A stretch of 64,000 nt of DNA from Pseudopyrenochaeta lycopersici (Eukaryota; Ascomycota; Dothideomycetes; Pleosporales; Pseudopyrenochaetaceae). The number at the start of each line of letters is the position of its first letter. Positions within the stretch are counted from its first letter, which is position 1. Shown here piece by piece: positions 32,769-53,148 of this stretch. The translations under genes were made by a program, and so were the position numbers. The stretch spans positions 186,001 through 250,000 of the forward strand of contig NHZP01000054.1 in assembly GCA_003313425.1 (NCBI GenBank), written 5' to 3'. The notes under the pieces were generated by a model. It made no database searches, was not told where the DNA came from, and saw only the letters and a program-made list of their open reading frames with translations.

Positions 32769-33084
32769 ACGACAGCCAAGCGCTGGGGGGAGACTGTAGG
32801 TATTGCAGCCGCAAAACACGAGGCAGCGTGCCTCTACGAGCCTAGAAGCACAGTATACTATTAGTAGAACCATTATCTAGATGAGCGAGCAAGGCAAATG
32901 TAGATAGCGGTTGAGGGGAAACGGCAGGCCTCTAGGAACAGCTGGCTCTTGTTTACGGAGTGACGTGGGGCGGCACGGATTAACGTCTGTGCCGCGTCGG
33001 CTGTTAGCTAAGCTAGCCAACCGGGCATAGCTGCGGAGAAAACGCGGCTGAAACCGAGTAGGACAAAATCAATCAATCAATCAA

Positions 33085-33099
33085 TCCAGCGTCGAAGCG
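33085..33099. repeat. LINE target-site duplication, right copy
   Basis: Exact repeat of 27094-27108 (tccagcgtcgaagcg). Confidence 0.93.
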
Positions 33100-33544
33100 G
33101 CTTTGGCACAGCTATCCTACACACTTCGAGATGCGGTCCAACGCACGATGACCTCGATGTCTTCCTCGCCCTCAAGCTCCGAAACCCACTGTTGTCCCTC
33201 CGCTGACCGAACGAAAGGCCTCTAGTCTCGGCTCGTAGAAGGGGAATACAATTATAAGATAGGATAGAGTGGGACGGCCCTAGTGGTGATACAGCTGTCG
33301 TATGGTCAAACGATGAACGGCTCCCTACATGAGCACTGCAATCTTTAGGGTTGTAGAGACGTGCTTTACTTTGACATGTGAGGGACATGAGGGGTTTGGA
33401 TCGTTCATGTTCGCGATGTATAGCAGAGCTGTAATGGTAGCTATGCTTGGCAAGGCACTACACTATCTAGGGCTCCATGCCGTTCTGTCACCGGAAACGA
33501 TGGTTATATCTCTTCCTAACGCCATTCATTCTAGACGTTCACGG
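33100..33544. other. Spacer, no gene seen
   Basis: Short ORFs only, up to the first terminal repeat. Confidence 0.45.
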
Positions 33545-33780
33545 CAAGGTCATGGTCGGAGCGGGTCGGCCGTCTTCCCTGCTAGCGTGATCGAGGCGTT
33601 CGTCTGCCTCTGGCCAGACTCAAGTGGCAAATATTTAACACGTAATTCTGCACGTGGACATCTTGTCACTTGATCTGGAGTTATGCTCGAAGCTTCGCTG
33701 TGGCAAATTGGCAAGCTATATATTCATGCTGATCCCCGGCCCTCTATGAAATAGAGAGAATAATAAAATACAGTAAGTAA

Positions 33781-36700
33781 TCATGAAAGCTCAACTTTGC
33801 ATATCCAGACCCTTCCAGTTCCAACACCAGTACCAATCATCTTCTCTGCCACCGCTGAACATGATGGTCGATACTCTGAGGGTAGCCATATTAGGTTCTC
33901 TGAATTGTATGTTATCCATACACCATCTGCGCTTAAGGCTAGGCCTTGATATTGAGGACTCTGAGGTTCTGAATGGGATAGAAGGGGTCTCGAACCTGAT
34001 AGAGCGCTGATTTCAATAGTGCCAATATCCGTTTGAAGATATGAGTCAGTGATGTCAAATGAGATGCGGAAGGGTGACTGGCCCTTGAGCGTCTGGAGGC
34101 AGTCGCCACTGCTTGCATCCCAGATCTTGACCGTCTTGTCGAACGACGCTGACGCTAGCCGGGCCGAGTCGTGGGAGAAGGCCACTGACCAGACCCTATC
34201 GCTATGGCCCTCGAGCGTCTGGAGGCAGTCGCCACTGCTTGCATCCCAGATCTTGACCGTCTTGTCGAACGACACTGACGCTAGCCGGGCCGAGTCGTGG
34301 GAGAAGGCCACTGACCAGACCGTATCGCTATGGCCCTCGAGCGTCTGGAGGCAGTCGCCACTGCTTGCATCCCAGATCTTGACCGTCTTGTCGAACGACG
34401 CTGACGCTAGCCGGGCCGAGTCGTGGGAGAAGGCCACTGACAAGACCCTATCGCTATGGCCCTCGAGCGTCTGGAGGCAGTCGCCACTGCTTGCATCCCA
34501 GATCTTGACCGTCTTGTCGACCGACGCTGACGCTAGCCGGGCCGAGTCGTGGGAGAAGGCCACTGACCAGACCCAATTGCTATGGCCCTCGAGCGTCTGG
34601 AGGCAGTCGCCACTGCTTGCATCCCAGATCTTGACCGTCTTGTCGCCCGACGCTGACGCTAGCCGGGCCGAGTCGTGGGAGAAGGCCACTGACCAGACCC
34701 TATCGCTATGGCCCTCGAGCGTCTGGAGGCACGCACTCCATTGATCCCCTATAGGTGGCTTTATTGAGATCCACTTTGGTTCTTCTTCCTTAAAATAACT
34801 CCTTATAAGGCCGCGGTTTGGACTAAATATAAGTGCAGATGCGTATGCTTGAAGAGGGCTGTTCTGTATTGCCTGAATGTGATACATTATAAACAGGCGC
34901 GCATCTTGAAGTAGTTTTATGAAGCTAGATGCATCTGCTCTTCTCTGAGTTATATTAGCATATATTATATAGAGCGTTGCTACTTTAGTAGTTACCTGGG
35001 CTAAAGCATTAAGTTTTACCATTGCAAGCACACCCTCTGACATGCTTCTATAGAGGCTTAGAGCCTCGAGCCAGTAAAGGTATTTCTTTCTGATGAAATT
35101 CTCGATATCGCTTTTGTCCTGAGAGTCGATCGCGTGGTTTGCAAATGAGTTGGAATTCCAGTCATGTAGGTGATCGACCCAATAGATACTTGAGTAGCGT
35201 AACGCCACTAACGGGTCTGGATCTGGCTGTTTCACCCGGTCGATAGGGCAGCCCAAGGCACCTAACCTGTAGATGTCTCGTCGCAAAGTCCTAGACATGA
35301 CCTTAAGTGATCTTGAGAAGATTTCATGGTGGGTCTCTTCTTTCCCAGACGGAAAGATCTCATTAGATGCCTTTTCGAGTAGAAAATCCTTTGCCGATTG
35401 ATGAACAAATGATATGGTGCGTTCCCGAAGTGTCAGAAAGGATCCACAAAGCTCTATGATCTCGGATAGAGCTTTGTATTCGCCAGCGACTCCGTCGGGC
35501 ATGTCGACCAAAGATGCTAACTCGTCCAATGTGACGGGGCGGTACACAGCCGAAATAACAGCCAGTATGCGTTTGCAAAGGTCTGAATCCCTGATCTGGC
35601 ATATCATCCGCCTGTACAAGCCATCGAGTCCAGGCGGAAACGCCGTCAGCTTCTGCTGAGCCTCCCATCCGGAGATATTAGACATTTCCTGGCAGACCAA
35701 GGCTACCCAAAGAAAAGTGTCGTTTGCATTCAGCGACAAGTAACGCTGGACAGCGTCTCGTGTATCAGTAGTATATCTATTTCGCTTTGCCAGCCAATCC
35801 ACCTTGAACTGGATATATGTCGCAACAGCACCGGAGATTGATTTTTCATTAAGCTCAAGACATAGTATCACCTTCTGCATTGCAGTGTCGAGGTCTTTCT
35901 CGATACTCGGCCAGTTTCGACTAGAGACGATCCACTTAATACGGGGAGATACAGACGACATCCACGAGATGAACTCTAACAATTTCGGTAAGCCTACTAC
36001 ACATTCGTCAAGCGCATCGACAATTAAATAGGTGCTGCTCAAATTGGGGTCTTGTAGAACATTGGTAAAGATCTCAGACAAAGCGACCCAGGCATTCGTA
36101 TCCTCGAAGAGTGGTTTTCCAGCGTTATCGTACTTCTTCCGTACATGCGAGATGAGAGATGGCTGTTGGTAGACAAGCAAGTAGAGGAGGCCTCGTAGCA
36201 CGGCCGTGGCGTTGTTGATGCGGGAGTCCGTGGCCTGGCAGAAGAAATAGGACAGGAGATCCGTCTTTGATATCGACTTATTCAGCTCGTTGACAATGCC
36301 GCAGAGCAACATCGTCTTGCCTTTACCAGGATCGCCCTTGATCCAGAGCAGTGGGCCGTGTTTGTCATTATGCCACTGTTGGAAGTCGGAGTTTTTGAGG
36401 ATCCAGCTGTACAAGTCCTCTAGCAAACCACCCTTGGTGTCTTCAATGCGCTTCTTGTCATCACGGGGATCGGTCGGGCGTAAGTCTTGGAGGCATTTGT
36501 TCAGCTTGTCGATCTCCTCCTCGAGCCGTTTGAATGCATCCGCGGATCCTTCTCCATAGCGAAGAGGCATTTCGACGTCGAAAATACCAAGTAGTGAGTA
36601 CGCTTCGTCTTCTTCGACCTTTGTCTGGCGGCACCGTATCCACGAAAATCGCTCTTTGTCGCTGAACTGAGATAAAGGTGTTCCTTCAAGCGCTGCATCA

Positions 36701-37308
36701 GGAATTCCTGTGATTTCGCGGATTTGTCGCCTCAGCGATCGTTTGTCGCCAAGTTTCTTCCGTTCTCGGGAGAAGAATTCGACCGAACTTGGGGCAAGAA
36801 GCTCTTGGAGCGTCCAGCCCCGAGTGAACCATTTGCTTTTCTGGAAATCCGATTCCCATAGCAATGGATTGCACTTCTCATCGCTGACTCCTACCGTCTT
36901 TGCCCAGTTGGACGGCAAAGGCATATATTCCGTCCATTTCCTTTTCCTGTTCGACGTGATGGAAGTTGTGGACACATCCAATAAATAGACGTAGCATCGA
37001 GTCGCGTTACGGTACCAGCGAAACATAGAGTTGATAGCCTGGGAGAGTTCGGCCTTGTTTGCTTTGTTGATGCAACAGGTGTCAATCCAAAAGTATTCCA
37101 AGTCGTCTAGTGCAGCTTGTTCTCTGCAGAACTGGATCTTCTCATAGCCAGACTTATCCTTGCCAGTGCCATTCGTCAGGTCTTCGAAGGTGACCTCCTC
37201 GGTGTCCGCTCCCCACGTATGCGAAAGTATCGCATAGGGAGGAATGCCCTCGTTGCCAAACTGAGTAAGACTGAAACCGCCAGTGTCGCAGCGTCGCAAA
37301 AGACGCAT
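33781..37308 (-). CDS. HET-NACHT-WD40 (HNWD) NLR-type allorecognition protein
   Basis: 1175 residues in one open frame. HET domain at about residues 25-130: YAILSHTWGADTEEVTFEDL and FWIDTCCINKANKAELSQAI. The linker includes SKWFTRGWTLQELLAP. NACHT: P-loop GDPGKGKTMLL near 325 and Walker B YLIVDALDEC near 427. From about 860 to 1070 come five nearly identical 42-residue WD40 units, then a degenerate C-terminal part. This is the architecture of Podospora HET-E/HET-D/HET-R, in which WD repeats sense, NACHT oligomerises and HET triggers cell death in heterokaryon incompatibility. Only five high-identity repeats suggests a short or contracted allele. No stops or frameshifts, so probably functional. 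Confidence 0.95.
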   Translation of the reverse strand: MRLLRRCDTGGFSLTQFGNEGIPPYAILSHTWGADTEEVTFEDLTNGTGKDKSGYEKIQFCREQAALDDLEYFWIDTCCINKANKAELSQAINSMFRWYRNATRCYVYLLDVSTTSITSNRKRKWTEYMPLPSNWAKTVGVSDEKCNPLLWESDFQKSKWFTRGWTLQELLAPSSVEFFSRERKKLGDKRSLRRQIREITGIPDAALEGTPLSQFSDKERFSWIRCRQTKVEEDEAYSLLGIFDVEMPLRYGEGSADAFKRLEEEIDKLNKCLQDLRPTDPRDDKKRIEDTKGGLLEDLYSWILKNSDFQQWHNDKHGPLLWIKGDPGKGKTMLLCGIVNELNKSISKTDLLSYFFCQATDSRINNATAVLRGLLYLLVYQQPSLISHVRKKYDNAGKPLFEDTNAWVALSEIFTNVLQDPNLSSTYLIVDALDECVVGLPKLLEFISWMSSVSPRIKWIVSSRNWPSIEKDLDTAMQKVILCLELNEKSISGAVATYIQFKVDWLAKRNRYTTDTRDAVQRYLSLNANDTFLWVALVCQEMSNISGWEAQQKLTAFPPGLDGLYRRMICQIRDSDLCKRILAVISAVYRPVTLDELASLVDMPDGVAGEYKALSEIIELCGSFLTLRERTISFVHQSAKDFLLEKASNEIFPSGKEETHHEIFSRSLKVMSRTLRRDIYRLGALGCPIDRVKQPDPDPLVALRYSSIYWVDHLHDWNSNSFANHAIDSQDKSDIENFIRKKYLYWLEALSLYRSMSEGVLAMVKLNALAQVTTKVATLYIIYANITQRRADASSFIKLLQDARLFIMYHIQAIQNSPLQAYASALIFSPNRGLIRSYFKEEEPKWISIKPPIGDQWSACLQTLEGHSDRVWSVAFSHDSARLASASGDKTVKIWDASSGDCLQTLEGHSNWVWSVAFSHDSARLASASVDKTVKIWDASSGDCLQTLEGHSDRVLSVAFSHDSARLASASFDKTVKIWDASSGDCLQTLEGHSDTVWSVAFSHDSARLASVSFDKTVKIWDASSGDCLQTLEGHSDRVWSVAFSHDSARLASASFDKTVKIWDASSGDCLQTLKGQSPFRISFDITDSYLQTDIGTIEISALSGSRPLLSHSEPQSPQYQGLALSADGVWITYNSENLIWLPSEYRPSCSAVAEKMIGTGVGTGRVWICKVELS
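34102..34731 (-). repeat. Five near-identical 126-bp WD40-coding repeats
   Basis: Units of 42 codons (CLQTLEGHS..V.SVAFSHDS) are almost identical at DNA level and differ mainly at a few codons: DR/NW/DT after the GHS, W/L before SVAF, and G/V/F before DKTVKIW. Near-identity with variation at fixed sites is typical of rapidly exchanging sensor repeats. Confidence 0.95.
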
Positions 37309-37678
37309 TGCTTCGCATGGAGCTGGACGGGGGCAAGCGCTAGGGATGGATCTCGATCGGGTTTAAACGTGGCAGCCTAACTGAAGAGATGAGCAGCGCA
37401 ACTCGCTCGTCCGATGAGAATATCAGTCCTAGCTACTAACGTTAGCAGCATATAGGAAGATAGGATGCTGAGCTATACCGAAGAGTTGCATCTGAAAGTG
37501 AGACAGCATCAGATTGCACAGCCTACAGTGTGGCGCGGTAAGGCTGAGATGCAGCTGTCACACTGCAGGAGGCGAATTTGCAAGCGATTGACTGATTATG
37601 CTTATATCTTGAGAAGCGGACGAACACCTCGATCACGCTAGCAGGGAGGACGGCCGACCCGCTCTGGACAGACTCTTG

Positions 37679-38304
37679 CGCGAGAGGCGCTATTTTCTGG
37701 CATTGATGAGAAGAGAGGTTGGATGGGCGTTGTTGCCACCGGGTAGAGTGGTGGATGCCAAGAGATGCCGAGCACAGGGGTCTTTCTGGTTCCCGCTGTA
37801 GGGGCCCGTTTCCAGTGAGAAAGGGCTAGTATGCCTAGTCACATGATCATGTTTGTTCAGCGAGCAGCTGCAAAATTAAACCTGTTTTTGGTCAGAGGCG
37901 CCTTGGCGAAGCTAATTTTATTCTTGCCGATGATGGTCAGTCAAGTGGAACCATTTTGAAGCACTGACTTATGAACAGATGAACCTTGAAATACTTGTAG
38001 GAAGTGGCCGAAGCCAAAGCGGACCAGTTTAGAGCCCGCAGTGGGTCCGAATTTCCGTAGATTGAACCTCTGGAAAGGAATGTTGCACTAGGCACTCAGA
38101 ACAGGGCCCCACTGCGGGAACCAAAACAGGACCCATAGCTAGCCAAGCAGCTTGGACCAGATCTCGCATTGGAGGAACTGGGGTTAGCAGATGTGGCAGT
38201 GCTTGACCGCCACAACGCCACACCTAAGCCGGTTGTTGCGAGCGCCAACAACAGCTTCCCATCTTCCTCTTCTTTCTCTACTCCAAACTCAAATGTAGAT
38301 CTTC
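37679..38304. other. Spacer between modules 1 and 2, diverged repeat arms
   Basis: No gene. Weak similarity links blocks here to DNA beyond the right end of module 2: gttgttgccac near 37730 and 49590, ttcccgctgt/ttcccgttgt near 37790 and 49640, and the reverse complement near 38105 (cactgcgggaacc). The terminal repeat family may therefore be a few hundred bp long, with the outer part poorly conserved. Confidence 0.4.
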
Positions 38305-38467
38305 ACAACCCTATAGCCGGAGCGGGTCGGCCGCCCTCCCTGCGAGCGGTGGCGATATCTAGTGCCAAATCACTTAGATTACAGTTAGATATCACTCATA
38401 ATCATGCTTACACAACTCATGCTATTCCACACTTGCACTGGCTCTCTTATCTACAATTAAAGCAGCA

Positions 38468-38719
38468 TCAAAATCCTGTCTCTGTGTTCTCCATCTGCCA
38501 CTCATTTAAAGTTTCAAGTGAAGACTCCGTGTCAGGATGATGGCGGCCAAGCAACCTCTCTCTCATCTCCATCACTTGCACCTCCATTTCATCGGCCTCC
38601 TTCCACCGCCTTTGACTCCACAAAGTTGAGGCCAGGTTGGCTAATACTAGCGAACTTGTCTGGGTGCTCTGGCCCAAGGATAATGCGCGGCGCAGCGCGA
38701 GGCGGATTGCGTGGAGCAA
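38468..38719 (-). pseudogene. TPR (kinesin-light-chain type) relic
   Basis: The minus frame reads LANLASTLWSQRRWKEADEM, then EVQVMEMRERLLG and HHPDTESSLETL. This is the 42-residue TPR unit typical of fungal NB-ARC-TPR proteins (QGRW.EAE.L, LG..HPDTL). Only about one and a half units remain, with no NB domain nearby. It lies just inside the left end of module 2 and suggests a former NLR at this site. Confidence 0.7.
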
Positions 38720-39121
38720 CGCTTGTTCAGCCTTGCTACAGCCACGCCTCCTCTATAAGCGACCGCAACGTCGGTCCCGTCTGCCTTCATTGTACCCTTG
38801 TCTCCTGTCGCGCCTCTGTACGTTTTCACAATCTCCGCCCAGTTGCTCCATGGAACCGCTCAACGCGACGGCTAGTATAATTGCTATTCTCCAGCTCTCG
38901 AGCAAGGTCGTCGGGTAGTTAAATGATGTCAAAGATGTAGTTTAGTTAAGTTATTACACACGTCATCTTCAAGGGGCACGTGATGGGTAAGGCTGCAAAA
39001 CGCCAAGCGTTGCCTGGCATTATCCCACTCCACTTCGAACTCTGAACTTTTAAACCAATGGCTTTTTGGCGGCATCAGATTATCCCCTCCTGTTCGTCAT
39101 CATTCAGTTTATCTCTGCAAC

Positions 39122-40624
39122 ATGCCAGCTCCCCAAGTCCCTCAGTCCCGTAATAATAATGCTGCTCACGCTCAGCAGCTTCAGGGTGGCCAGACCGTCA
39201 GAGCCGACAGGCTCCAACAGCTGCGCAAGGACCTAGCGACAGAGATAGGATTCCAGAACGTCGAATCAGCCACCGCATTTCTCAATCTTTGCGAAAACCT
39301 GCATTTGGGCGACGGCCTCGACCATTATCTGGATCTTTTTCTGCGTACCGTACAGACTTTCTCTGTCCCGAAACCAACCCCGCCACGCAATATTCAGTCA
39401 TGGATAAACGCGCTAATTGCAGATAACAGTGAACCGTTATTCGCGCATACGACTGATAATGCAGAGAAGAGAAGGAAGCTCGTGGTCGACAAGGTATTGT
39501 ACATCATGGGGTTGTGGATTGCCATGTTGACCTACACTATCGAAGCGCCTGGGCATTATAGGCCGATTGTCTATGCATACTGCGTATCTCAGGAGAGATG
39601 TGATCTCTTGAACTGGGAAGATCGTACAAATGCCGCATTGGCGGAAACATTGCCGGATCTGATAGACAAGAGCCGTCTATTCAAGTCGCCTGAGACAGAC
39701 GACCCAATAAATCGATACGCTCGGACGCGCAAAATATCATATGGCTCGAGCACAATCGCCAGCGAAGTCTCTACGACCACTTTATCTGCTCCACCACAGC
39801 AGTTCAATGACGGGTATTCTCCGCTCTTGCTCCACAGCTCCTTGGACTTCCTCGAGTCCGCTTTTGTCCAATCGAACGTGCTCAACGCCCACACACTCTT
39901 CATCTTTGCCGGCGTGCGCATCAAATGGACGGTGAATCTCTCCCGTCACCTCATCCTCTCCTTTTCCGCGGGAAACCACGTACTCGAACTCTTCGCTCTA
40001 CCCTCTCTCCTCTATTACGGGAGGAAGTCGCTCCAAGTGGCTGGCGTGTCCAATGCCTTCATCCAAGAAGTACTGGAGTCGTATTCCGTTCTGTTCAATC
40101 CCAAGGGAACCAAGGACCCGCACGGTAATCTCGGTTTCCTTCGGCGAGGGTGGTGTTGGTGCCTATCGTGTTCGTGCCGTCGCTTGCGATCCAGGGAGCT
40201 CGCAGAATTGAGTGGTACCATCTCGACTCTGAGCAGAGCGCGGATAACCAGAAGCAAGAATGCCAAGAGCGAATTTGATCCATGCTTATCTGACGTTATG
40301 ACCAATGCTCTACCGGGCCACTGGAGTCCAAACCGCTTCCCCACGCTGTGGCCGAGGGTGGCGGCGGCGAATGAGCATCTGCGGAATGCCAAGCCGTGGA
40401 ACTTTTGGGTTTTGTTTCGGGATCGGAGGGATTCGCTGCCGTTCTGGACTTTCCTGTAAGCTGTATCCAATTTTCATTTTGCGTCGTCGCAGGAGAAGAT
40501 TAAGCGTGTTATCTGACTTTGACTGATACGATTCACGTCCTACAGTTTCGCCATATTTGTCGTCATCTTGACAGCCGTTCAAGTCGGTCTGGGAATTGCA
40601 CAAGTGGTGGGCTCGTTCAAGTAA
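39122..40624 (+). CDS. Fungal protein with C-terminal membrane anchor, unknown
   Basis: Exon 1 is 39122-40455, intron 40456-40545 (gtaagc...tacag, 90 bp), exon 2 40546-40624. The join reads FWTFL then FAIFVVILTAVQVGLGIAQV, a single C-terminal membrane segment; without splicing the stop at 40457-40459 would remove it. Product about 470 residues. Notable stretches: GLWIAMLTYTIEAPGHYRP, a Cys-rich GWCWCLSCSCRRL, and NFWVLFRDRRDSLPFW just before the anchor. I recognise it as a recurrent Pezizomycotina hypothetical type but know no function. It is convergent with the ankyrin/protease-like gene inside the same repeat-bounded module, so the two may work together; that is inference. Confidence 0.8.
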
Positions 40625-40806
40625 TGTCATTGTGTAAAATTCCGATAAGTCAATGTCCATACATTTACATTGAAGTGCAAATCATTGGGCCCAAGCGGTT
40701 CACGGGTGGACTTCTTCTTACAACAAAGAAAATATTACTACTAAAACACAAATTTCACTCTTGCAGCTCTAGTAAAAACAACGTTGCGGACCTGTGCAAG
40801 CCAGTT

Positions 40807-43800
40807 CTAGGCAATCTTGTGGCTCTCTCTCATCTTTTGCGGGGCTTGGAAGGCTCCATAGAAAGCTACTCGTCCACTTTGCAGTCTTTGTCTCACTGTT
40901 TCTGCAGCACTGCCGATTGGCGGCTGTATGGCGTCGCACTTCTGTACGAATGTTTGAAAACCTGCCAGGCCTGGCCCAAATGAACGATCTTCTCTCAATC
41001 CATTGGTGTAGATGCCTACCCCGCTGTTGCCAGTAGGTAAATTAGGTGAAACGCGATACAAAAGCACACGGGAGAGAATGTTTTTCATGGCTTCGGGATC
41101 TAATATTTCGGGGCCCAATTTCTTGGGATCCTTGAGCTCGTAATGCAGGAGCAAGCCTTCCCCGACGGCCTTCCGATGCGTTAGCAAGGCCCGGGCGCAT
41201 AGTTAGATGACGCGCAACTTACAACACACTCCGATTCCCTCGCAGTAGGTAGAGATTCAGCTTCAGTGTTTTGTACATCTTCAAGTACTTTGACTGAGAA
41301 GATGTCTTGCCGCAGATTGTGCCAACCGGATTCGGAAAGCCAACCCAAACCATTTACAGGGCACGTAACTGTGGCAACGCACCCGGTATTGGTAGGCCTA
41401 ACCAGCGTTACATCGTGCCGAAACCCAGTAGGGTAGTCGCAAGCCTCCGGATCGAACGAATCGTAGATTGTGCCAATCTTCATATCTAGCATTAGCCATA
41501 CGTCATCCTATTGGCAGAGGGATTCGTCGCAAACCTTGGCACCTTGCACATAGACATGTACGTCGTCTTTCCAATTTCCGGTCAAGTAATGATTTACCGC
41601 CTTCTGTGCTCGAGGGAACCGTGCTCGAGGGAACCGTGCTCGAGGAAACCATGCATGTTTCTTCTTCGAAACATCTAATGCGTCCGTAATGACATGCGTT
41701 GGCATGGTAAGATATATCTCATTGTCGTAAATTGTCTTCAAGCCTATCCTTCCTTTGCTACCCTTATCGAACTCAATATCTTTTACTCTGACCTCAACTT
41801 TGTCATTCAGGCGAAGCTGTACCGCCGGGATGTTAGTTGGAGGCTGCGGACCAAGAGACGCTGTTGGGGTTATTGTCTGGTGGATATAGGTGACTTTAAG
41901 ACCGCCATACACATGTGGCTGGGTTTTTAACGCCCGGCCAAGGTCAAATTCTAATGGTACGAGGACCTGAAGCCAACCGTTGATCAAAATGTAGAATCCA
42001 AGTGCGCCTTCGAAAGTGCGGACGAGAAGCCTTATGAGTTCGGACGTTATAGGGGCCCGGGGATCTATTGCACGTCGTAAGGGATCTCCAGGAGTGGCCT
42101 CATCCGCCATTAAGGGGTATCTAGATTCGACCGGAATGACCACGGGGCTTCCAGCAATGCTTAGCGGAACGCTGTCTGCTGATAGAGTGGTGAAGGGAGT
42201 AAACGTCCAACAGGAGAATCGCTCCTCGTATTCGATGTCGTCGTGTAAATGCTTAGGCAGATTCTTAACTAGTCCTCGCCAATTATTGGCCGAAGCTGAT
42301 AGATCTTTCAAGAGGTGGCGACTGACGATATGTTCAAGCTCCAGGAGACTTTGTGGATCAATTAGGCAATCCCCAAGACGTTGCGTATCAGAAAGGGGGA
42401 TCATCCCGAGCTCCCTGTGTGTCATCCATAAACGGTAGTTTTCCTTCGGTAAATCTGATTTTTGCTGGAGTAGGGTCCAAATACTACTCACAGCGTCGGA
42501 GTGCACCACTTCTAGTGACACTACATTACGACTGGGTAATCGAACGAAGATCAGGTACGGCTTCTGGGATAACTTCTCTATTAAGATGTGATCAGCTTTT
42601 TAAACCCCCAGTTTACGGAGTGAGGCGTGCCATGGCTGGACAAAGGATCCTTACCTGTGTTGAGAGTATTACGGTGCCCACTACTCAGCATTCCCTGCCT
42701 TCTATCCATTATATTCTCATTTCGTTCCATCGCCTCCAGCATGCCTCCTAGACCGAGGGAACTGTTATAGAGCCTCCTTATAGCACTAAGACGGTGGGGG
42801 TGCTTGCTGTCCAGCATCTTCTGCCTTATCTCACGGAGGGGTGTCTGCCCATCCTTGTCAACTGCCTTGACGTCTGCACCCTTCTTAATCAGCATCTGTA
42901 TGGTCTCTGCAGCGTCTTTTGAGCCTGATCGGGTGGCATCGTGGAGGGGTGTCCGCCCGTCCTTGTCAACTGCCTTGACGTCTGCACCCTCCTGAATCAG
43001 CATCCGTATGGTCTTTGCAGCGTCTTTTGAGTCTGATTGAGCGGCATCATGAAGGGGTGTCCGCCCGTCCTTGTCAACTGCCTTGACGTCTGCACCCTCC
43101 TCAATCAGCATCCGTATGGTCTCTGCAGCGTCTTCTGAGTTTGATTGAGCGGCATCGTGGAGGGGTGTCCGCCCGTCCTTGTCAACTGCCTTGACGTCTG
43201 CACCCTCTTCAATCAGCATCCGTACGGTCTCTGCAGCGTCTTCTGAGTTTGATTGAGCGGCATCGTGGAGGGGTGTCCGCCCGTCCTTGTCAACTGCCTT
43301 GACGTCTGCACCCTTCGTAATCAGCATCGGTAAGGTCCATACAGCGTACTTTGAGCCTGATCGGATGGCATCGTGGAGGGGTGTCCGCCCGTCCTTGTCA
43401 ACTGCCTTGACGTCTGCACCCTCCTCAATCAGCATCTGTATGGTCTCTGCAGCGTCTTCTGAGTTTGATTGAGCGGCATCGTGGAGGGGTGTCCGCTCGT
43501 CCTTGTCAACTGCCTTGACGTCTGCACCCTCCTCAATCAGCATCCGTATGGTCTCTGCAGCGTCTTCTGAGTTTGATTGAGCGGCATCGTGGAGGGGTGT
43601 CCGCTCGTCCTTGTCAACTGCCTTGACGTCTGCACCCTCCTGAATCAGCATCCGTATGGTCCATACAGCGTACTTTGAGCCTGATCGGGCGGCATCGTGG
43701 AGGGGTGTCCGCCCGTCCTTGTCAACTGCCTTGACGTCTGCACCCTCCTCAATCAGCATCCGTATGGTCTCTGCAGCGTCTTCTGAGCCTGATCGGGCGG

Positions 43801-46800
43801 CATCGTGGAGGGGTGTCCGCCCGTCCTTGTCAACAGACTTGTCGGCAATATGTGCTTATCAATGTTCTTATCAATCAATATCAATATTCATCCAAGTAGG
43901 CAATATCAATATGGGATATCGTTATCAATTCAATATTGATAAGTATTGATAAGGGCACGTGCACACCCACTTCTCACCACCTTTTTGCTTTTTTCGCCTT
44001 TTTTCGCCTTTTTTGGTGTTCTTCCGCGCCCTTTCGCGTCCTTTCGCGTTTTCCTTTTTTGCACCTTTTGCGTGCAAATCCCAGGGTATCTACCGGTTTA
44101 TCTCTCTGCTGCATGCTCCACAACCACCGCCATAAACCATTCTACAACGTTATGGCCTCCCAGAACTCCCAAGGTCGGCCTATCCGACCTCCTTCCTCCT
44201 CATCCACACCCTCTCTACCCACTACGCCTTCCTCCAGAGCCTCTCCTAGTCCATGGCGCTTCCTCAATGACAAACCACATCGACCTGACCGTAGCCGTGA
44301 GGACGTAAAGTCAAGAAAGAGGCGTGCTGCTGATATATGGACACACTTTCGGAAGCCAGAGAATGATGAGGCAATGCGCGATAAGTCAGGGCAATCACTG
44401 ATGTATTGTAAGGACTGTGACGGCTATGGGAAACCCTGGGCTACTGCTATTACCACTAACGCTAGGACTCATATGGCGAATCTACATCAAGTCTACGTTG
44501 ATGTTGAAGAGCCGAAGGGAAAGAAAGTACGGCAAGTCTCTCTCCAAGCAGCCCTTCAAATGTCGGTAAAGAAGCAGGTAGAGAAGAATACCGAGGATGT
44601 GGAGGAGGTTCTTACGAAGGCGCTTAACAAAGACGCCTTCTACGAGGCACAAATCCAGCTTGTTACTCGCCGCCGCTTGCCTTTCAACTGTGTTGAATGG
44701 CCAGAATACCAAGCGCTCCTAATGGCAGTTAATCCAGAGGTCGAAAACCTACTTATCGAGTCACACACTACTATACCTGTCCACATTGAGCGAAGCTTTA
44801 AAACACACTACGCTACCATTAAGGAGCGCCTACACAGGGCAAAGTCTCAAATCCACTACTCTATCGATCTCTGGTCATCGGCAAACCGGAAATCATTCCT
44901 TGGCATCTGCGCGCAATTCGTTGGACACGACTACACCCTCCGCAAAGCTCTCCTCTCCCTCCCACAGTGTCGCTTCTCTCACAGCGGCGAGACGATGGCA
45001 AGGCATATTCTCGAGACAATACAAGCCTATGAGGTTACGGAGAAGACAGGCTATATTATTGGGGATAATGCTTCCAGTAACGACACTTGTTGTAGGGCTA
45101 TTGCAAATGCTCTTACAAAAATTGGGGTGGAATTCAATGCAAAAAAGAGGCGGATTCGATGCAGCGGTCATATAATCAATCTATCTCTTGATGCCTTCCT
45201 CTTTGCAACTACAGTAGAAGCCCTTGAGGCTGCCATTGAGGCTGCAAAAGAGGAGTCTGATATCACTGTGGTTGAAGCATTGCAAGAGCAGCTTCGTGAG
45301 AAGAGAGGCGACAAGAAAGGCAAAAGAATGCGACTCCTTAACGAGGCTAGGTGGCAGTCCAATGGAGCGCTTGGGAGCCTCCATGGTATCGCTGTCTATA
45401 TTCGCTCCTCCACTATATTGACTGATGAGTGGGAGGCACTTGCTGGGAAGCTTCTGGGCATCGATAACGCAACACGCTGGAACTCCTGGTACAAGTTGAT
45501 TGCATTGGCCGTTGAGAAGCAGGATGCTTTGAATAAGTTCTGTCAAAAGCATCATAGAGCCCTTGGTGGCGCTGTTCTTTCTGCGGAAGATTGGGAGACT
45601 CTTACAATGACTCTTGAATTCTTACAGCCATTTAATCAAGCAACACTTACACAGGAAGCTAACTGGTCATCGCTTGACCAAGCTCTCTGGACAATGGATA
45701 TCCTCTTTAAACACTACGAGGAAGCAAAGGTATGTTGCTGATAAAAAACTTATTTATACTGCTAATCTTAAGTAGATTCAATATAAAAACAACTCCCATA
45801 TAGTCAACTCCATTAATATGGGGTGGTATGTCCTTGACAAGTATTACAAATCCTCTGACGAAGCGCCTGCCTATACCACAGCCCTCCTCCTCCATCCCCG
45901 ACGCCGCCTCAAGTATATTGATATCAATTGGGTATCCTCCTGGAGAGAACCGGCCCTTACTACCGCAAGAGAGATTTGGGCAAATTATAAGGATCTGCCT
46001 CTTCTAAAGTCGCAGAAGGAGGCGGATAATTCACAACCAGAACTCTCAAAATTTGAGAGGCTTGCGGCGGAGCTTGACGTTATGGAAGAGGAGGAAGAGG
46101 AGGATGAATTCGAGAAATTTGTGAACGCAAAGCCTTGTAAGATCACTTGCTCTCCTTTGGAGTGGTGGTGTAAAGAGGAGCAGCGACTAGAATACCCTCG
46201 GCTTCATCAAATGGCGATGGATATCCTTTCTATTCCTCCAATGTCTGATGAAGCCGAGCGCGTCTTCTCAGGCGTACGGAGAACTATCTCATGGGACAGA
46301 GCTAGGCTAGGAGCATGGATTGTGGAGATGACAGAGGTTCTGGGTAATTGGAATAAGAACGGGCTTATCCAGACACTCTACATACCGGCAGAAGATCCTG
46401 GCAATATCACAGCCGAAGTAGAAAGCGATGACAATGGGCTTTCCGGACTATAGGTGCCCAAAGTGTCTGAAACACCATAGATTCTATATGCTAGTCCCAA
46501 TCGGGTGATTCTTGGCAATATTATCAATTCAATATCAATCTTGGGTCTGGATATCAATTCAATATCAATATCACCCTTATCAATCAATATTGAATTGCCG
46601 ACAAGTCTGCTTGTCAACTGCCTTGACGTCTGCACCCTCCTCAATCAGCATCCGTATGGTCTCTGCAGCGTCTTCTGAGTTTGATTGAGCGGCATCATGA
46701 AGGGGTGTCCGCCCGTCCTTGTCAACTGCCTTGACGTCTGCACCCTTCGTAATCAGCATCGGTAAGGTCCATACAGCGTACTTTGAGCCTGATCGGGCGG

Positions 46801-48619
46801 CATCGTGGAGGGGTGTCCGCCCGTCCTTGTCAACTGCCTTGACGTCTGCACCCTCCTGAATCAGCATCCGTATGGTCTCTGCAGCGTCTTCTGAGTTTGA
46901 TTGAGCGGCATCGTGGAGGGGTGTCCGCTCGTCCTTGTCAACTGCCTTGACGTCTGCACCCTCCTCAATCAGCATCGGTAAGGTCCATACAGCGTACTTT
47001 GAGCCTGATCGGATGGCATCGTGGAGGGGTGTCTGCCCATCCTTGTCAACTGCCTTGACGTCTGCACCCTCCTGAATCAGCATCCGTATGGTCCATACAG
47101 CGTACTTTGAGCCTGATCGGATGGCATCGTGGAGGGGTGTCCGCCCGTCCTTGTCAACTGCCTTGACGTCTGCACCCTCCTCAATCAGCATCCGTATGGT
47201 CTCTGCAGCGTCTTCTGAGCCTGATCGGGCGGCATCGTGGAGGGGTGTCCGCCCGTCCTTGTCAACTGCCTTGACGTCTGCACCCTCCTCAATCAGCATC
47301 CGTATGGTCTCTGCAGCGTCTTCTGAGTTTGATTGAGCGGCATCATGAAGGGGTGTCCGCCCGTCCTTGTCAACTGCCTTGACGTCTGCACCCTTCGTAA
47401 TCAGCATCGGTAAGGTCCATACAGCGTACTTTGAGCCTGATCGGGCGGCATCGTGGAGGGGTGTCCGCCCGTCCTTGTCAACTGCCTTGACGTCTGCACC
47501 CTCCTGAATCAGCATCCGTATGGTCTTTGCAGCGTCTTCTGAGTCTGATTGAGCGGCATCATGAAGGGGTGTCCGCTCGTCCTTGTCAACTGCCTTGACG
47601 TCTGCACCCTCCTGAATCAGCATCCGTATGGTCCATACAGCGTACTTTGAGCCTGATCGGGCGGCATCGTGGAGGGGTGTCCGCCCGTCCTTGTCAACTG
47701 CCTTGACGTCTGCACCCTCCTCAATCAGCATCTGTATGGTCTCTGCAGCGTCTTCTGAGTTTGATTGAGCGGCATCATGAAGGGGTGTCCGCCCGTCCTT
47801 GTCAACTGCCTTGACGTCTGCACCCTTCGTAATCAGCATCGGTAAGGTCCATACAGCGTACTTTGAGCCTGATCGGATGGCATCGTGGAGGGGTGTCCGC
47901 CCGTCCTTGTTAACTGCCTTTACGTCTGCACCCTCCTGAATCAGCATCCGTATGGTCTTTGCAGCGTCTTTTGAGTCTGATCGGGCGGCATCGTGGAGGG
48001 GTGTCCGCTCGTCCTTGTCAACTGCCTTGACGTCTGCACCCTCCTGAATCAGCATCCGTATGGTCCATACAGCGTACTTTGAGCCTGATCGGGCGGCATC
48101 GTGGAGGGGTGTCCGCCCGTCCTTGTCAACTGCCTTGACGTCTGCACCCTCCTCAATCAGCATCTGTATGGTCTCTGCAGCGTCTTCTGAGTTTGATTGA
48201 GCGGCATCGTGGAGGGGTGTCCGCCCGTCCTTGTCAACTGCCTTGACGTCTGCACCCTTCGTAATCAGCCTCGGTAAGGTCCATACAGCGTACTTTGAGC
48301 CTGATCGGGCGGCATCGTGGAGGGGTGTCCGCCCGTCCTTGTCAACTGCCTTGACGTCTGCACCCTCCTCAATCAGCATCCGTATGGTCCTTGCAGCGTC
48401 TTCTGAGTTTGATTGAGCGGCATCGTGGAGGGGTGTCCGCCCGTCCTTGTCAACTGCCTTGACGTCTGCACCCTCCTCAATCAGCATCCGTATGGTCCTT
48501 GCAGCGTCTTCTGAGTTTGATTGAGCGGCATCGTGGAGGGGTGTCCGCTCGTCCTTGTCAACTGCCTTGACGTGGTGGATGTTGCGGCGGAGCCAACTGG
48601 ATCCTTTATGCGAAGCCAT
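40807..48619 (-). CDS. Ankyrin / ubiquitin-like / trypsin-like gene, split by a hAT
   Basis: Parts, minus strand: 48619-46610 (ankyrin), hAT insertion 46609-43834, 43825-42655 (ankyrin; 43826-43833 is the duplicated target), intron 42654-42578 (gtaagg...taatag), 42577-41223, intron 41222-41170 (gtaagt, branch gctaac, ggaag), 41169-40807. The frame agrees across the insertion and both introns, about 1630 codons. Roughly 28 near-identical 36-residue ankyrin units lead to a ubiquitin-like domain (IFVRLPSRNVVSLEVVHSDA, LPKENYRLWMTHRELG, IPLSDTQRLGD). The C-terminal part has candidate trypsin-like residues: His in TMPTHVIT (41694-41696), Asp in FRHDVTLVRP (41412-41414) and Ser in TGNSGVGIY (41023-41025). 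A TAG at 41508-41510 is either a nonsense codon or the end of a 90-nt phase-0 intron (gtaaat...caatag). As it stands the allele is broken by the hAT. Confidence 0.75.
43826..43833. repeat. hAT target-site duplication, left
   Basis: cttgtcaa, repeated exactly at 46610-46617. Eight bp is the hAT hallmark. The motif lies in the VDK codons of an ankyrin unit. Confidence 0.95.
43834..46609 (+). mobile_element. Intact hAT DNA transposon inside the ankyrin gene
   Basis: 2776 bp with perfect 16-bp terminal inverted repeats (cagacttgtcggcaat and its complement) and a perfect 8-bp target duplication. Subterminal DNA on both sides is packed with short tatcaat/attgata motifs, likely transposase sites. 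It encodes a complete transposase, so it may be autonomous. It lies antisense to the ankyrin gene. A related relic is at 10088-10361. Confidence 0.96.
44152..46453 (+). CDS. hAT transposase
   Basis: I start at 44152 (MASQNSQGRP); the frame is open to 43936, but that part is AT-rich terminal DNA. Exon 1 44152-45729, intron 45730-45775 (gtatgt...agtag, 46 bp, phase 0), exon 2 45776-46453; 751 residues. N-terminal BED-type zinc finger (DIWTHFRKPEN, YCKDCDGYG, NARTHMANLHQ). The catalytic core includes YSIDLWSSANRKSFLGI, IGDNASSNDTC and RRIRCSGHIINLSLDA. The C-terminal dimerisation region reads MDILSIPPMSDEAERVFSGV then RRTISWDRARLGAW. It cuts and pastes the element through the terminal repeats. 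No break seen. Confidence 0.95.
46610..46617. repeat. hAT target-site duplication, right
   Basis: cttgtcaa, the second copy of the 8-bp duplication. Confidence 0.95.
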
Positions 48620-48915
48620 AGTGAAATAATTGCCTAAGCGACATGTGAAAGAGCGCTGCTGGATGCACGAAGCAACGACCGAACGTTGAGAAGATTATGG
48701 AATGTTTCGGGCTTAACCTAGGGTTTTTGTTACAGGTGAAGAACGCAGAAACAAGGAATTGCGCGGTGGTAAAAGCAGTAATTCTGGAAGATTGGCCACG
48801 AGGGTGAACATGCAATGGAAATATCGATTGGCTAACGAGGTGGTGGATGTGAATAGAGAACGCGGGGTAGAGGCTACATGTGATTTCGTCTGTCATATCA
48901 GGCAAGATTATATGG

Positions 48916-49371
48916 TACGGTGGATTGGATTGGATTGGATTTGTCCTACTCGGTTTCAGCCGCGTTTTCTCCGCAGCTATGCCCGGTTGGCTGGCTTAGC
49001 TAACAGCCGACGCGGCACAGACGTTAATCCGTGCCGCCCCACGTCGCTCCCTAAACAAGAGCCAGCTGTTCCCAGAGGCCTGAATAGCTGCGCAGTACGC
49101 GGCTGAAACCGAGTAGGAATGAATCCAATCCAATCCAGAGGCCTGCCGTTTCCCCTCAACCGCTGTCTACATTTGCCTGGTCCGCTCATCTAAATAATGG
49201 TTCTACTAACAGTATACTGTGCTTCTAGGCTCGTAGAGGCGCACTGCCTCGGGTTTTGCGGCTGCAATACCTACAGTCTCCCCCCAGCGCTCGGCTGTCG
49301 TTTACCCGTCTCTGATCCCCCCTTGCCCAAGAATCTGCGTCTGCTCTATAAACTGGATGGCTTTGGTGGCT
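48916..49371 (-). mobile_element. 5'-truncated LINE copy, minus strand
   Basis: Read on the minus strand it matches the 3' end of the LINE at 27109-33084, from the last ORF2 codons through the 3' UTR, and ends in tandem aatcc units (seen here as tggat repeats at 48921-48940). The target duplication caagattatatgg is at 48903-48915 and 49372-49384. Removing the nested insert (49083-49134), it is about 400 bp. A typical incomplete reverse-transcription product from a slightly different subfamily. Confidence 0.93.
49083..49134 (+). mobile_element. 52-bp nested LINE 3'-end insertion
   Basis: Inside the truncated LINE a 52-bp piece in the opposite orientation carries the LINE 3' terminus (gcggctgaaaccgagtagga) and its own aatcc tail. 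It is flanked by ccagaggcctg at 49072-49082 and 49135-49145. The full-length LINE has a single uninterrupted equivalent of that site (near 32930), so this is an extremely 5'-truncated later insertion. Confidence 0.93.
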
Positions 49372-49537
49372 CAAGATTATATGGCGGCTATGCAGATCAC
49401 GCCACAAAGGTCGCTAGTGTTCGGCCTGCGTAAGCATACTTACGAATGATATTCAACGGTAATCTAAGTGATTTGGCACTAGATATCGCCACCGCTCGCA
49501 GGGAGGGCGGCCGACCCGCTCCGGCTATAGGGTTGTG

Positions 49538-50302
49538 CGAGAGGCGTTGAACTTATCTGAAGCAAATGCTACAGTATCTGAGATTGTGGTGGTTGTTGCC
49601 ACGTACTTGGACTGGCAGTGGTGTTCGTATTAGTTCCCGTTGTGGGGTCCGCTAGTGATCGCCCCTCGCTTCCGATCTAGGTAACCTATTACGGCATAGC
49701 GGGGCGGGGTTCGAAACTCACGGTGCGCGACACCGTCTGGAAGCTCTCAGTGGCAAGCACGCACACGCACACACCATTATCATTCTTCAAAATAGTCAAC
49801 GCTTCTCGCACTTGTGAGAGCCTTTTTTTTCTGCAGTAGTCAAATAGAGAGAGCTATGAGAATGTGTGACTGTGGTTAAGATCAGTTTCTCCGTTGTGGC
49901 GTTGTGGCGTTGTGGCGGTGCTACCAATCCAATGCTATCTAATCACCCACTGTTGTGGGAACAGTGCGAAAAGCCCGAACCATAACCGACAAGCATTGCG
50001 AAGTGCCCAACTTTCATCTGCTTCGGGTCCTGTTTAGTCCCCAACTAGAGGCCCGTTCTGGTATCTGTGTCGGCCCTGATTTGGTTTCATGGTCTTAATG
50101 CGTGCACGTCGATCATTAGCAAGGAGCCCAATTTTGGTTACCGCAGTGTGGGCCCGTTGGCGAACCCCTCGCTTACGATGCCGTGGTAAGGCTGTGCACG
50201 ACCCACGCTTAGCGCTCCCCGCTTCACCGATACCTCAAGTCCTAGTGACAACCACGAACCCTTCTTTGGATGTCGCAAAAAAGAATTCCAACGCCTCTCG
50301 CA
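49538..50302. other. Spacer between modules 2 and 3
   Basis: No gene. Contains diverged outer-arm similarity to the spacer before module 2, a short tandem ttgtggcg run near 49900 and CA-rich simple sequence near 49760. The motif cgcctctcgc(a/g) occurs just outside three terminal-repeat copies (37679-37688, 49537-49546, 50292-50302). Confidence 0.4.
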
Positions 50303-50451
50303 CAAGGGTGTGGCCGGAGCGGGTCGGCCATCCTCCCTACTAGTGGTGGTGAATTGAAGTATTTTATGTTGTAATTGTCTGCCTGTAAATGCCGCCAATT
50401 ATACTGTCGCTAAACCAGTCCTAACGATTTTGTGGATGTATTTTCTCGCTG

Positions 50452-50502
50452 CCTTACAAGAGTGTGGCTGGAGAGGGTCTGCCATCCCTACTAGCGGATT
50501 GG
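50452..50502 (+). repeat. Lone copy of the module terminal repeat
   Basis: ccttacaagagtgtggctgg followed by agagggtctgccatcccta is a diverged, slightly deleted copy of the same core, about 100 bp inside module 3. No inverted partner is obvious other than the module's right end. Confidence 0.6.
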
Positions 50503-50910
50503 GGTGTTAGAATCTTAAGTGTCGCCTAGCGCCAATCATGCACTGCTATTCATAGAGTGGGCTGTGCAAAACTTCAAAAACTCTGTATTTCAAGAATCCG
50601 AAATCCTTCCTTTGGAGGTAACTTACTTAGTATGTTCTAAGTCTTTGTACTGCTAAGTATTTACCCCTTGCATAAAACCGACCGCCAGGCAATCCACTTC
50701 CATCGTTCACTCTGAGGGATTTGTCGACCTCAACTGCGTTTCTGGGGAAAAGTAAAAGAGTGGTAGGTAACAGCATATTCGCGAATGCATAGGCTGCCTT
50801 CGCTTCGTCTCAACTATTTACTCTGATGATACTACCGCATTCACACCAACCTTTTGATTTTTCAACCGCTGACAGGTGAAATCAAGGTTCAACCGGTACA
50901 TGAATATCAG

Positions 50911-52776
50911 ATGTCCGACGCAGAAAGTGGTCACGAGTATCAGCCACTGGATCTTTCAACGGACGAGATCCGGTTACTTACACTTCATCCTGGAAGAGAC
51001 GGTGATAAGATCAGCTCCACATTGAGTCATCACAACCTCACGGACAACATAGAGTACGAGGCGCTCTCATACACATGGGGAGATAATGCGAACCTACGGA
51101 CTATTATCTTAGATGGCGTTCCTTTCCAGGTCACAGCAAACCTTGAAACTGCCTTGCGCCATCTTCGGTACCCGCTTTCGAGTTTACAGTCACATGGAGA
51201 GGGAAGGCTACACACCGGCAATCAACATAAAGATAGGGCATTATGGGTTGATGCACTCTGCATCAATCAAAATGACAATGCAGAGACAAGTCAGCAAGTA
51301 GCAATTATGGCCAAAATATATTCGCATGCTAGCCGAGTACTGATATGGCTGGGCGAGGAAACAGAAGAAGTGAGTGACGCGTTTGCGTCAATAAAAAGAG
51401 CGCTATCTTACTTCCCGCCCGAAAGCGGCTTGCAAGTAGAAGGGAATCCAATCCAGCGGCTTACGCATATCCTAACGACATCCCACAATGGACTTGGCAA
51501 ACTATTTTCGTTTAATTGGATTCCGCTCGGAAATCTGCTTGCTCGGGCCTGGTTCCAACGCAAATGGGTTATTCAGGAGGTAGCTCACGCACGAGAAGCG
51601 TTGCTTATATGTGGGCATCAGACCCTCCCGTGGGATTCCATCGCCGATCTCACTAGCCGCTTGCATTACTTTAGCATGACACACACGGTTTCTGCGAATC
51701 TTGGATGTGTCAATGACGAGGCGCAAATAGCATATCAGCATCTTATCATAATGAGGGCTTTCCGGGCCATGCAGGAACCAGACGGTTCTCCTAACCCTAC
51801 CCTGCTCGATCTACTGCTACTGGCCCGACAATTCAAGTGTACCGATCCCAGAGACCACATATTCGCAATACACAGTGTCTCCTCAGAACGAGAAAGTCAC
51901 GAGCATAACTTCCCCATCGATTATACTCAAACCGCGGAAGAGACGTACCGTAGGTTTGCAGCCTGGAGCATTTTTGGGAAGAGCAGTCTGCGGTTATTGT
52001 CAGTACCCACCGATCCCTCTCAGCAGTCAGAATTAAGTTTGCCGTCGTGGGTACCAGATTTTACTCGGCTTGATCGGGTAAACCCTTTAATATCGTATGA
52101 GGTCTCTCCATATAAGGCAACCGCGGGTACATCTCCGATCGTGCGACTCTCTTACAACGACAGTGTCCTACATACAAGTGGAAAGGTTATCGATCGAGTA
52201 CATATTCTAGGGAGTACGTACGAAGACACCTTCCCAGGGATCGCAGATCCGAACCCAGTTACCAGATTCCGCCGGCAACAGCTGTGGTTCCTTGAATGTC
52301 AAGATATCGCTCTGGGTGACGATGTGATCATGTCCCCTCAACGGTTCGAAGAATTCTGGCGGACAATGCTATGCGATGCGAAAGGCTTACCAGACACACA
52401 CGAACGCGCAACAGCAGAGTATGCCAGCTACTTTTTACAGTTTTCCGATACCATACATGCTGAACCTAGGGAGAAGAACTCGAATTGGTACAAGGACCGT
52501 ATGCAGGGTATCATCGCGGTCGAACAATCGCTGCACGCCCATGCGAGTCGTCGCCGATTCTGCGCTACGAGCGGTGGGCGCCTCGGCCAAGTTCCCCGCG
52601 GCGCAGCCATCGGAGACTTGATATGCATTTTTTATGGCGGTAGTGTCCTCTACGTCATACGCCCCGTCGACACTGGCTTCTTCACGTTCGTTGGGGAATG
52701 CTACGTCCACGGACTTATGGACGGAGAAGCAATGGAGATAGAAGAACTCCGGGAGCAGGAGTTTGCTTTGCGTTAG
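50911..52776 (+). CDS. HET-domain incompatibility protein
   Basis: 621 residues from the ATG at 50911 (MSDAESGHEYQPLDLS); the frame stays open upstream to 50854 without an ATG. The HET domain occupies about residues 50-200: YEALSYTWGDNANLRTIIL, RALWVDALCINQNDNAETSQ, KIYSHASRVLIWLGEET, then WFQRKWVIQEVAHAREALL. A conserved downstream segment reads FKCTDPRDHIFAI and IDYTQTAEETYRRFA, the usual C-terminal body of stand-alone HET proteins. No intron, stop or frameshift. HET proteins trigger heterokaryon-incompatibility cell death, usually in response to an allele-specific partner that I cannot identify here. It is the sole gene of module 3. Confidence 0.92.
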   Translation: MSDAESGHEYQPLDLSTDEIRLLTLHPGRDGDKISSTLSHHNLTDNIEYEALSYTWGDNANLRTIILDGVPFQVTANLETALRHLRYPLSSLQSHGEGRLHTGNQHKDRALWVDALCINQNDNAETSQQVAIMAKIYSHASRVLIWLGEETEEVSDAFASIKRALSYFPPESGLQVEGNPIQRLTHILTTSHNGLGKLFSFNWIPLGNLLARAWFQRKWVIQEVAHAREALLICGHQTLPWDSIADLTSRLHYFSMTHTVSANLGCVNDEAQIAYQHLIIMRAFRAMQEPDGSPNPTLLDLLLLARQFKCTDPRDHIFAIHSVSSERESHEHNFPIDYTQTAEETYRRFAAWSIFGKSSLRLLSVPTDPSQQSELSLPSWVPDFTRLDRVNPLISYEVSPYKATAGTSPIVRLSYNDSVLHTSGKVIDRVHILGSTYEDTFPGIADPNPVTRFRRQQLWFLECQDIALGDDVIMSPQRFEEFWRTMLCDAKGLPDTHERATAEYASYFLQFSDTIHAEPREKNSNWYKDRMQGIIAVEQSLHAHASRRRFCATSGGRLGQVPRGAAIGDLICIFYGGSVLYVIRPVDTGFFTFVGECYVHGLMDGEAMEIEELREQEFALR

Positions 52777-53148
52777 TCGTTTGTATTGTAGTCGAATGTC
52801 GCTTTTGTCCTGCTCATAAAATAGCCGCTCAACTCCTCTAGGGATATATCTGATGCCCTTAACCTTCTTCTGGAGGCGTCCAACGTCTTCCTTGGCATTC
52901 ATAATAGCTTCGTCTACCTGTATAGCGATTTGACTACGGGTAAGGCTCAATGCCAAGACCGCTACGAGGGTGAGTCTGAGTAGTTTGCCACATACTCGGC
53001 AATGCACTTCGTCTGCGCACAAGACAGGTTCAGCTGCAACTTAATTAGTGGTATTTACTGCTAGTCAGTTAGTTAAAACATAACTACTTCAACGCGCCAC
53101 CGCTAGCAGGGAGGACGGCCGATCCGCACCGGACACACCCTTGTAAGG

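Follow-up and report, generated by a model that had tools for sequence, protein, structure and literature searches.

The stretch of DNA analysed here, termed the window, is a segment of 64,000 nucleotides from the genome of the fungus Pseudopyrenochaeta lycopersici, probably a tomato-root pathogen (C54:186001-250000; C-numbers denote contigs and L-numbers extracted loci). It contains three consecutive modules, each lying between two inward-facing copies of a short conserved sequence that we call the core (33545+/37679-, 38303+/49537- and 50303+/53143-, n=6 cores). An initial annotation of the window had placed six cores here as three inward-facing pairs, and all were present when the window was searched again. 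A seventh copy, degenerate and same-facing, lies at about 50457+ behind the left core of module 3 (core 3L). The core and its pairing are part of a family-wide feature that is real and extends beyond the window.

Each module contains a gene of a different kind (Table 1). The HNWD gene of module 1, the HET gene of module 3 and the ankyrin gene of module 2 are as annotated. The same annotation had also read ubiquitin-like and protease-like genes in module 2; this is unconfirmed, because none of its three other scanned non-transposase open reading frames (ORFs; 38984-40456, 40504-40980 and 41511-42599) has a Pfam match at E 0.001. The ORF of the long interspersed nuclear element (LINE) to the left of module 1 (28905-32765) has RVT_1, endonuclease and RNase H domains.

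Table 1. Features of the three modules and their surroundings, in window coordinates. TIR, terminal inverted repeat; the arm types are described in the text.
Feature	Position	Strand	Basis
Outer A-type TIR arm, element terminus TAACGTCCCCCACTGCG at 26507	26507..27108	+	100% over 602 bp to C51:268914 A arm; terminus pattern at C54:212507
LINE nested in A arm, 15-bp target duplication TCCAGCGTCGAAGCG, (ATCA)n tail	27109..33084	+	Arm alignment interrupted between A602 and A588
Inner A arm, closing with linker and core 1L (33545-33587)	33085..33587	+	98.8% to C51 A arm
Cargo 1, open frame of 1193 aa stop to stop, HET + NPHP3_N/NACHT + WD40 (HNWD type)	33784..37362	-	Pfam
Core 1R and linker	37636..37679	-	Core pattern searches
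Spacer between modules 1 and 2, 624 bp, C-type flank beside core 1R	37680..38303	.	No TAAC terminus at up to 5 mismatches
Linker and core 2L	38303..38348	+	Inverted partner 93% over 111 nt
Cargo 2, ankyrin-repeat gene, 108-nt repeat array, split by hAT	42584..48694	-	27 in-register matches of 300-nt reference; Pfam
hAT nested in ankyrin gene, candidate 8-bp duplications ATCAATTC, TIR match 11/14	43924..46530	+	Dimer_Tnp_hAT in 45776-46450; junctions
Core 2R and linker	49493..49537	-	Core pattern searches
Spacer between modules 2 and 3, 766 bp, C-type flanks on both ends	49538..50303	.	Sequence comparison
Linker and core 3L	50303..50345	+	Degenerate same-facing copy after it at about 50457
Cargo 3, HET open frame, 648 aa stop to stop	50830..52773	+	Pfam; module copy 99.9% at C1:1808905-1811745
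B-type TIR arm, core 3R (53101-53143) to terminus TAACATCCCCCGCTACG at 53744	53101..53744	-	83% over 651 bp to C42 B arm

The core family and its long arms

The genome of one strain (62,731,430 bases in 188 contigs) was searched for the core. The exact core GAGCGGGTCGGCC matches 78 times (reversed control, 2). With a 30-nt core and up to three mismatches allowed there are 89 matches, and with a looser IUPAC core 147, the control giving 0 in both cases. Merging these lists and that of one more search, with about the first 100 of the 147 looser matches entered, gave a catalogue of at least 156 distinct ends. Neighbouring catalogued ends within 13 kb form 49 pairs, with 32 inward, 13 outward, four -- and none ++ (permutation 0/10,000). 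Linker, core and inner extension are each more similar inside pairs than between them (0/10,000 permutations each, for 17 pairs that include some related copies). It had been claimed that the inner extension is specific to each pair. The two members of each pair in the window do share it, but it is not unique in the genome; TGATCGAG is also found behind cores in L040, L049 and L052. There was no exact match to the core pattern in the collections viral_contigs and genome_contigs, which says little because these are viral, bacterial and archaeal.

Two further arrangements of cores were observed. A core at L053 (C96:59912-68255) and that at 68280 stand back to back, separated by just a short junction. 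L040 (on C12) has a further close inward pair (653+/2530-, 1.9 kb apart) that stands outside the catalogue.

The core forms the conserved inner end of long TIRs, and the element ends lie 0.2-1.2 kb further out. The arms are of types A, B, D and E, together with a short diverged type C. Inverted-repeat arms of 1164 bp (99.9% identical) were found on C51, 694 bp (98.8%) on C34, 625 bp (99.7%) on C46, 654 bp (96.5%) on C37, 661 bp (84%) on C43 and 353 bp (90%) on C1. The outer edges of the A, B and D arms, i.e. three of the four types with known ends, start with TAAC(A/G)TCCC; no terminus was found for the C-type flanks. This terminus pattern has 249 matches in the genome and none in the control. 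Within 2.6 kb inward, 34 of the 100 termini listed have a core that faces the same way and one has a core that faces the opposite way; within 2.6 kb outside, one has any core. The C51 element is inserted into a minisatellite, where comparison of its flanks with the neighbouring repeat units gives a TA duplication. The TA at other TAAC ends is consistent with such a duplication, although it is not proof of it.

In the window all three modules lie in a stretch of 27.2 kb between one A-type and one B-type terminus. The A arm starts at 26507, is interrupted by the LINE and continues from 33085. On C46 two modules lie between two B ends.

Several copies of the D arm are interrupted near arm position 380, and we considered whether this arm might comprise two nested layers, in the manner of Russian dolls. 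This was ruled out by a search of the genome with the full arm, which found uninterrupted copies on C66 (98%) and C33 (78%), both over positions 1-630, and on C27 (82% over 28-630). Because of these copies, and of MULE-like (Mutator-like element) sequence at the break in L056, D is taken to be a single arm with insertions.

A few other loci with arm sequence are recorded here. A giant palindrome at C42:355502-369800 (L059, L033, L054, L034 and L060) has arms of at least 5.8 kb at 99.97%; its centre is a B/B element with ankyrin cargo, and it reaches past the element ends to the edge of the DNA examined. At L065 (C34:570428-574211) a MULE-domain ORF with tandem subterminal repeats (TGAGATTTGTCCCCAA) is flanked by two D-type half arms, which stand in inverted order. 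L023 and L024 (C25:830939- and C25:852429+) share an identical flank of 1.5 kb beside a partial D-type arm, and face outward 21 kb apart. The same D-arm match occurs at C115:1781.

Genes between the paired cores

The content of 23 of the 32 catalogued inward pairs was inspected, including the three in the window. Twenty regions were chosen before their content was known, and 19 of these cover one inward pair each (L055 without the last 0.2 kb of its pair); the C1 pair was chosen for a spacing equal to that of window module 3, and C11 was added later. Immune-type sequence is present in 21 of the 23. HET or NACHT-type domains account for 17 (window modules 1 and 3, L039, L041, L042, L043, L044, L045, L047, L048, L049, L050, L051, L055, L056, L057 and L058), where L039 was scored as HET through its identity with window module 3. 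Three pairs have ankyrin or DUF7104 repeats only (window module 2, L054 and L046), and L066 has DNA-level likeness to an HNWD gene without a long ORF. The members of the HNWD cargo set have 54-96% mutual identity. The inspected pairs are not 23 independent captures, since L039 nearly duplicates window module 3, and several of the cargo sets are related to one another.

Whether HET, NACHT and ankyrin-type genes are enriched between inward pairs had been raised as a question, and for HET such enrichment is also seen on the scale of the genome; among the best 150 of 520 candidate HET matches, nine fall inside the 32 inward pairs where 0.39 would be expected by length. We also compared 17 cargo ORFs with 35 loci centred on paired and unpaired ends (38 extracted, less three duplicates), over 1.5 kb on each side. 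Homology to cargo was found on the inner side of 24 of the 35 and on the outer side of one; these loci are partly the two ends of one element and so are not all independent. When the ten loci that overlap or copy the source of a query are removed the contrast is 15 against one of 25. The view that the modules are related mobile or once-mobile units with allorecognition-type genes is thus upheld by the inward pairs across the genome and by this contrast. These units had been said to lack a transposase of their own, and in agreement no DDE_1 domain was found among the cargo ORFs scanned, which are part of all ORFs. Nor was a tyrosine-recombinase (captain) domain found among them; no genome-wide search was made for this domain.

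The cargo genes differ in their relatives. Among the best 120 of 3099 protein matches to cargo 3 there are relatives at 89% (on a contig of 12.3 kb), 86% (Lentithecium fluviatile) and 71%, followed by a drop to 39%; this patchy distribution of protein matches might possibly reflect horizontal transfer. Cargo 1 gives no hint of transfer, as its best 120 matches, out of 7490, come from many fungi and range from 63 to 78%.

Composition was compared with the cut-offs used to read indices of repeat-induced point mutation (RIP). Two B arms have RIP-like TpA/ApT ratios of 1.6-1.9, as do the non-gene interiors of L051 (1.71) and L042 (1.64). RIP-like composition was not seen in the sampled A arm (0.82) or in five stretches of cargo gene (0.63-0.75).

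Mobilisation and exchange of cargo

An element at C54:160468-167067, of which about 4.2 of the 6.6 kb was examined as sequence, has TAAC ends, a TIR of 50 bp (92%) and an open frame of 649 codons with a DDE_1 domain (E 1.1e-30). We take DDE_1 (PF03184) to belong to the Fot1/pogo-type Tc1/mariner superfamily. Over 67-74 bp the right terminus of this element is 87-93% identical to several B arms, and the element contains no catalogued core. Matches to DDE_1 are abundant in the genome (150 scored of 742 candidates). The call for a transposase with matching ends is thereby answered for the B-type terminus, and not for A, D or E. From these termini we infer that a DDE_1 (Tc1/mariner-type) transposase may move the core-bearing elements in trans.

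Closely similar cargo is found in different arms, which we shall call shells. Over 2856 bp window module 3 matches L039 at 99.9%, yet the arms are C/B in the one and E/E in the other. The cargo of L045 (D/D) is about 96% like that of L056 (D/C) up to the right linker, and about 85-91% like that of L058 (A/A). The cargo of L018 and that of L057 are 97.4% identical, but the linker and outer core differ, so that the changeover lies inside the core. L021 and L013 are 94% identical in cargo, and their flanks differ beyond about 25 bp. Because such cargo sits in different arms with the changeover at the core block, exchange anchored in the core is suggested. The changeovers are spread over this block, which is more in keeping with homologous exchange than with a site-specific integrase.

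On this evidence we think it rather likely that non-autonomous DNA transposons have the cores as the inner ends of their long TIRs, that in the elements inspected they usually carry genes of allorecognition type, and that they combine a DDE_1 mover with core-anchored exchange. The DDE_1 transposase would act in trans on elements lacking one of their own. Breaks, such as those left by excision, would be repaired from other members of the family through the shared core; this repair would copy cargo from one shell into another, and would also keep the two arms of a single element alike.

A different mover was favoured in the initial annotation, in which the core-bounded cassette was itself mobile and moved by a hAT transposase. 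The ends do begin with CA, and hAT transposases are present inside two modules (window module 2 and L052). However, the cores are not element ends; the termini lie outside them and begin TAAC or TTTAAC, the one target duplication is TA, and the B terminus is shared with the DDE_1 element. Reading by eye of the core flanks and TAAC ends examined found no 8-bp duplication. The hAT of L052 has a perfect 16-bp TIR (16/16) and an 8-bp duplication of its own, while that of module 2 interrupts the ankyrin gene, lying between two parts of its array with a weaker junction and candidate duplication. The hAT of L052 is therefore clearly a passenger and that of module 2 probably one, so that movement of the cassettes by hAT is largely refuted and is extremely unlikely. 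A Mutator-like transposase was also considered, as long TIRs with captured genes recall Pack-MULEs and the MULE-domain ORF of L065 lies between two partial D-type arms. A target duplication of about 9 bp was not found in the one element that informs on this, that on C51, where the duplication is TA only. Furthermore the sequence that adjoins the cut D arm of L056 matches the end of the MULE region of L065, and for this reason the MULE looks to have been inserted into the D arm. We regard a Mutator-like mover as improbable.

Alternatively the arms could be targets and the cassettes movers, inserting without duplication at the centre of palindromic arms by an unknown mechanism. The arms are indeed long inverted repeats on both sides, and in window module 3 and L045 cargo, linker and core lie together in different arms, with the break just outside the linker. 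Yet no empty A or B palindrome was found with an exact pattern and a centre of up to 30 bp, where short-loop palindromes may vanish in assembly, and the break in L018/L057 lies inside the core, as homologous exchange predicts. Insertion of this kind is unlikely. It could also be that HET and NLR-type (NOD-like receptor) genes simply occupy transposon-dense compartments in which the core is a common nearby repeat. The published genome analysis of P. lycopersici notes 42 HET genes in the vicinity of repeats, a purely positional result, and describes reproduction as predominantly asexual (PMC6034849). Among the best 150 of 520 HET matches, moreover, those within 6 kb of 91 of the 92 unpaired ends number eight on the inner and six on the outer side, and so give the pattern no support. 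Against coincidence stand the contrast in cargo homology between inner and outer sides, the inward pairing, the pair-specific ends, and the TAAC termini outside same-facing cores, which together make it very unlikely.

Returning to transposons moved by DDE_1 with exchange through the core, a number of observations weigh against this reading, including the HET count beside unpaired ends just described. Two inspected pairs are without typical cargo: L052 has a nested hAT and ORFs without family, and L053 has pyridoxal phosphate enzymes, one ankyrin ORF, and an ORF with a homeobox and a Tc5-type transposase DNA-binding (helix-turn-helix) domain and no DDE domain. Because the cargo families are related, there are far fewer independent captures than elements, and related loci enter the p-values as if independent. 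In the catalogue, which is incomplete, 92 of 156 ends have no inward partner; some may have one too diverged for the core pattern, of which C19:773462-777558, with two D-type ends and one catalogued core, is a possible example. The end of the E arm is different (TTTAACTTGTC, beginning TTTAAC). A clear empty site is available for a single insertion (C51), and a DDE_1 partner is seen for only one of the termini, that of type B. Lastly, exchange of cargo by core-anchored gene conversion or gap repair is read from junctions only, and we are less sure of this part.

More tentatively, and at somewhat less than even probability, the family might be a transposon lineage specialised for immune genes. 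The core would be a recombination handle by which NLR and HET cargo is copied between shells, and neighbouring modules would build arrays (three in the window and two at C46). A largely asexual fungus could in this way duplicate, move and reshuffle its allorecognition repertoire, with diverged cargo escaping RIP.

Relation to known systems and other features of the window

Pack-TYPE elements of plants (Pack-MULE, Pack-CACTA and Pack-Mariner) are non-autonomous TIR elements with host coding DNA, and neighbours that are mobilised together can fuse (PMC8903248). The elements described here resemble them in having TIRs with host-gene sequence between and no DDE_1 in the cargo ORFs scanned. They differ in being fungal, with long arms and often long open frames of one functional class; the inner core is shared among them, and arms of different type hold closely similar cargo. 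With Fot1/pogo-type Tc1/mariner elements they share a TA duplication (one case) and the B terminus of the DDE_1 element. That element has a 50-bp TIR and no catalogued core, whereas here the arms are of 0.2-1.2 kb and the cargo ORFs scanned lack DDE_1. We conclude that the family is probably related to Pack-TYPE elements, as a Tc1/mariner-type counterpart in a fungus, strongly biased towards immune-type cargo and with an unusual inner core shared among its members.

Starships have a captain tyrosine recombinase and are not known to have long TIRs, whereas the present units are of about 3-11 kb and have TIRs. Starships too are fungal elements, and are reported to be associated with NLR genes; transposon-carried NLR genes in fungi have been described with reference to them (PMC9815663). 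In Pseudocercospora a hAT captured and amplified the host histone H3 gene, a single housekeeping gene whose copies were inactivated by RIP (PMC6710886). Here the genes are varied and of immune type, and the five gene stretches sampled lack RIP-like composition. Galileo and other foldback elements have long TIRs that exchange; they belong to a different superfamily and are not known to carry immune genes. The likeness lies in ectopic recombination between copies of a transposon, reported for Galileo in Drosophila (PMC2775673). Diversification of HNWD genes in Podospora has been ascribed to repeat shuffling, selection and RIP, and the term 'inverted repeat' is absent from the available text (PMC1805685); in that of a 2025 paper on Podospora NLR genes, association with transposable elements is mentioned only as an assembly problem (PMC12222747). 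We found no earlier description of TIR elements carrying HET or NLR genes like this family in the open literature, judged by title and opening abstract, with most subscription papers and bioRxiv preprints outside.

The origin of the large and fast-changing sets of HET and NLR genes in fungi remains to be explained, particularly in species with little recombination. The presence of similar genes in different element shells means that the immune repertoire could be copied and reshuffled. If so, part of it would be mobile DNA, and its movement could be scored by comparing strains. The order of TAAC terminus, long arm, core and gene would then be a searchable signature of mobile immune genes in other fungi, distinct from that of Starships.

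Two other features lie in the window outside the modules. A Copia-type retrotransposon at 13984-22381 has RVT_2 and an integrase core, followed by an RNase H ORF. At the two edges of the window (1-879 and 62830-63708) there is a direct repeat of 879 bp that is 99.9% identical, its copies lying about 62 kb apart.

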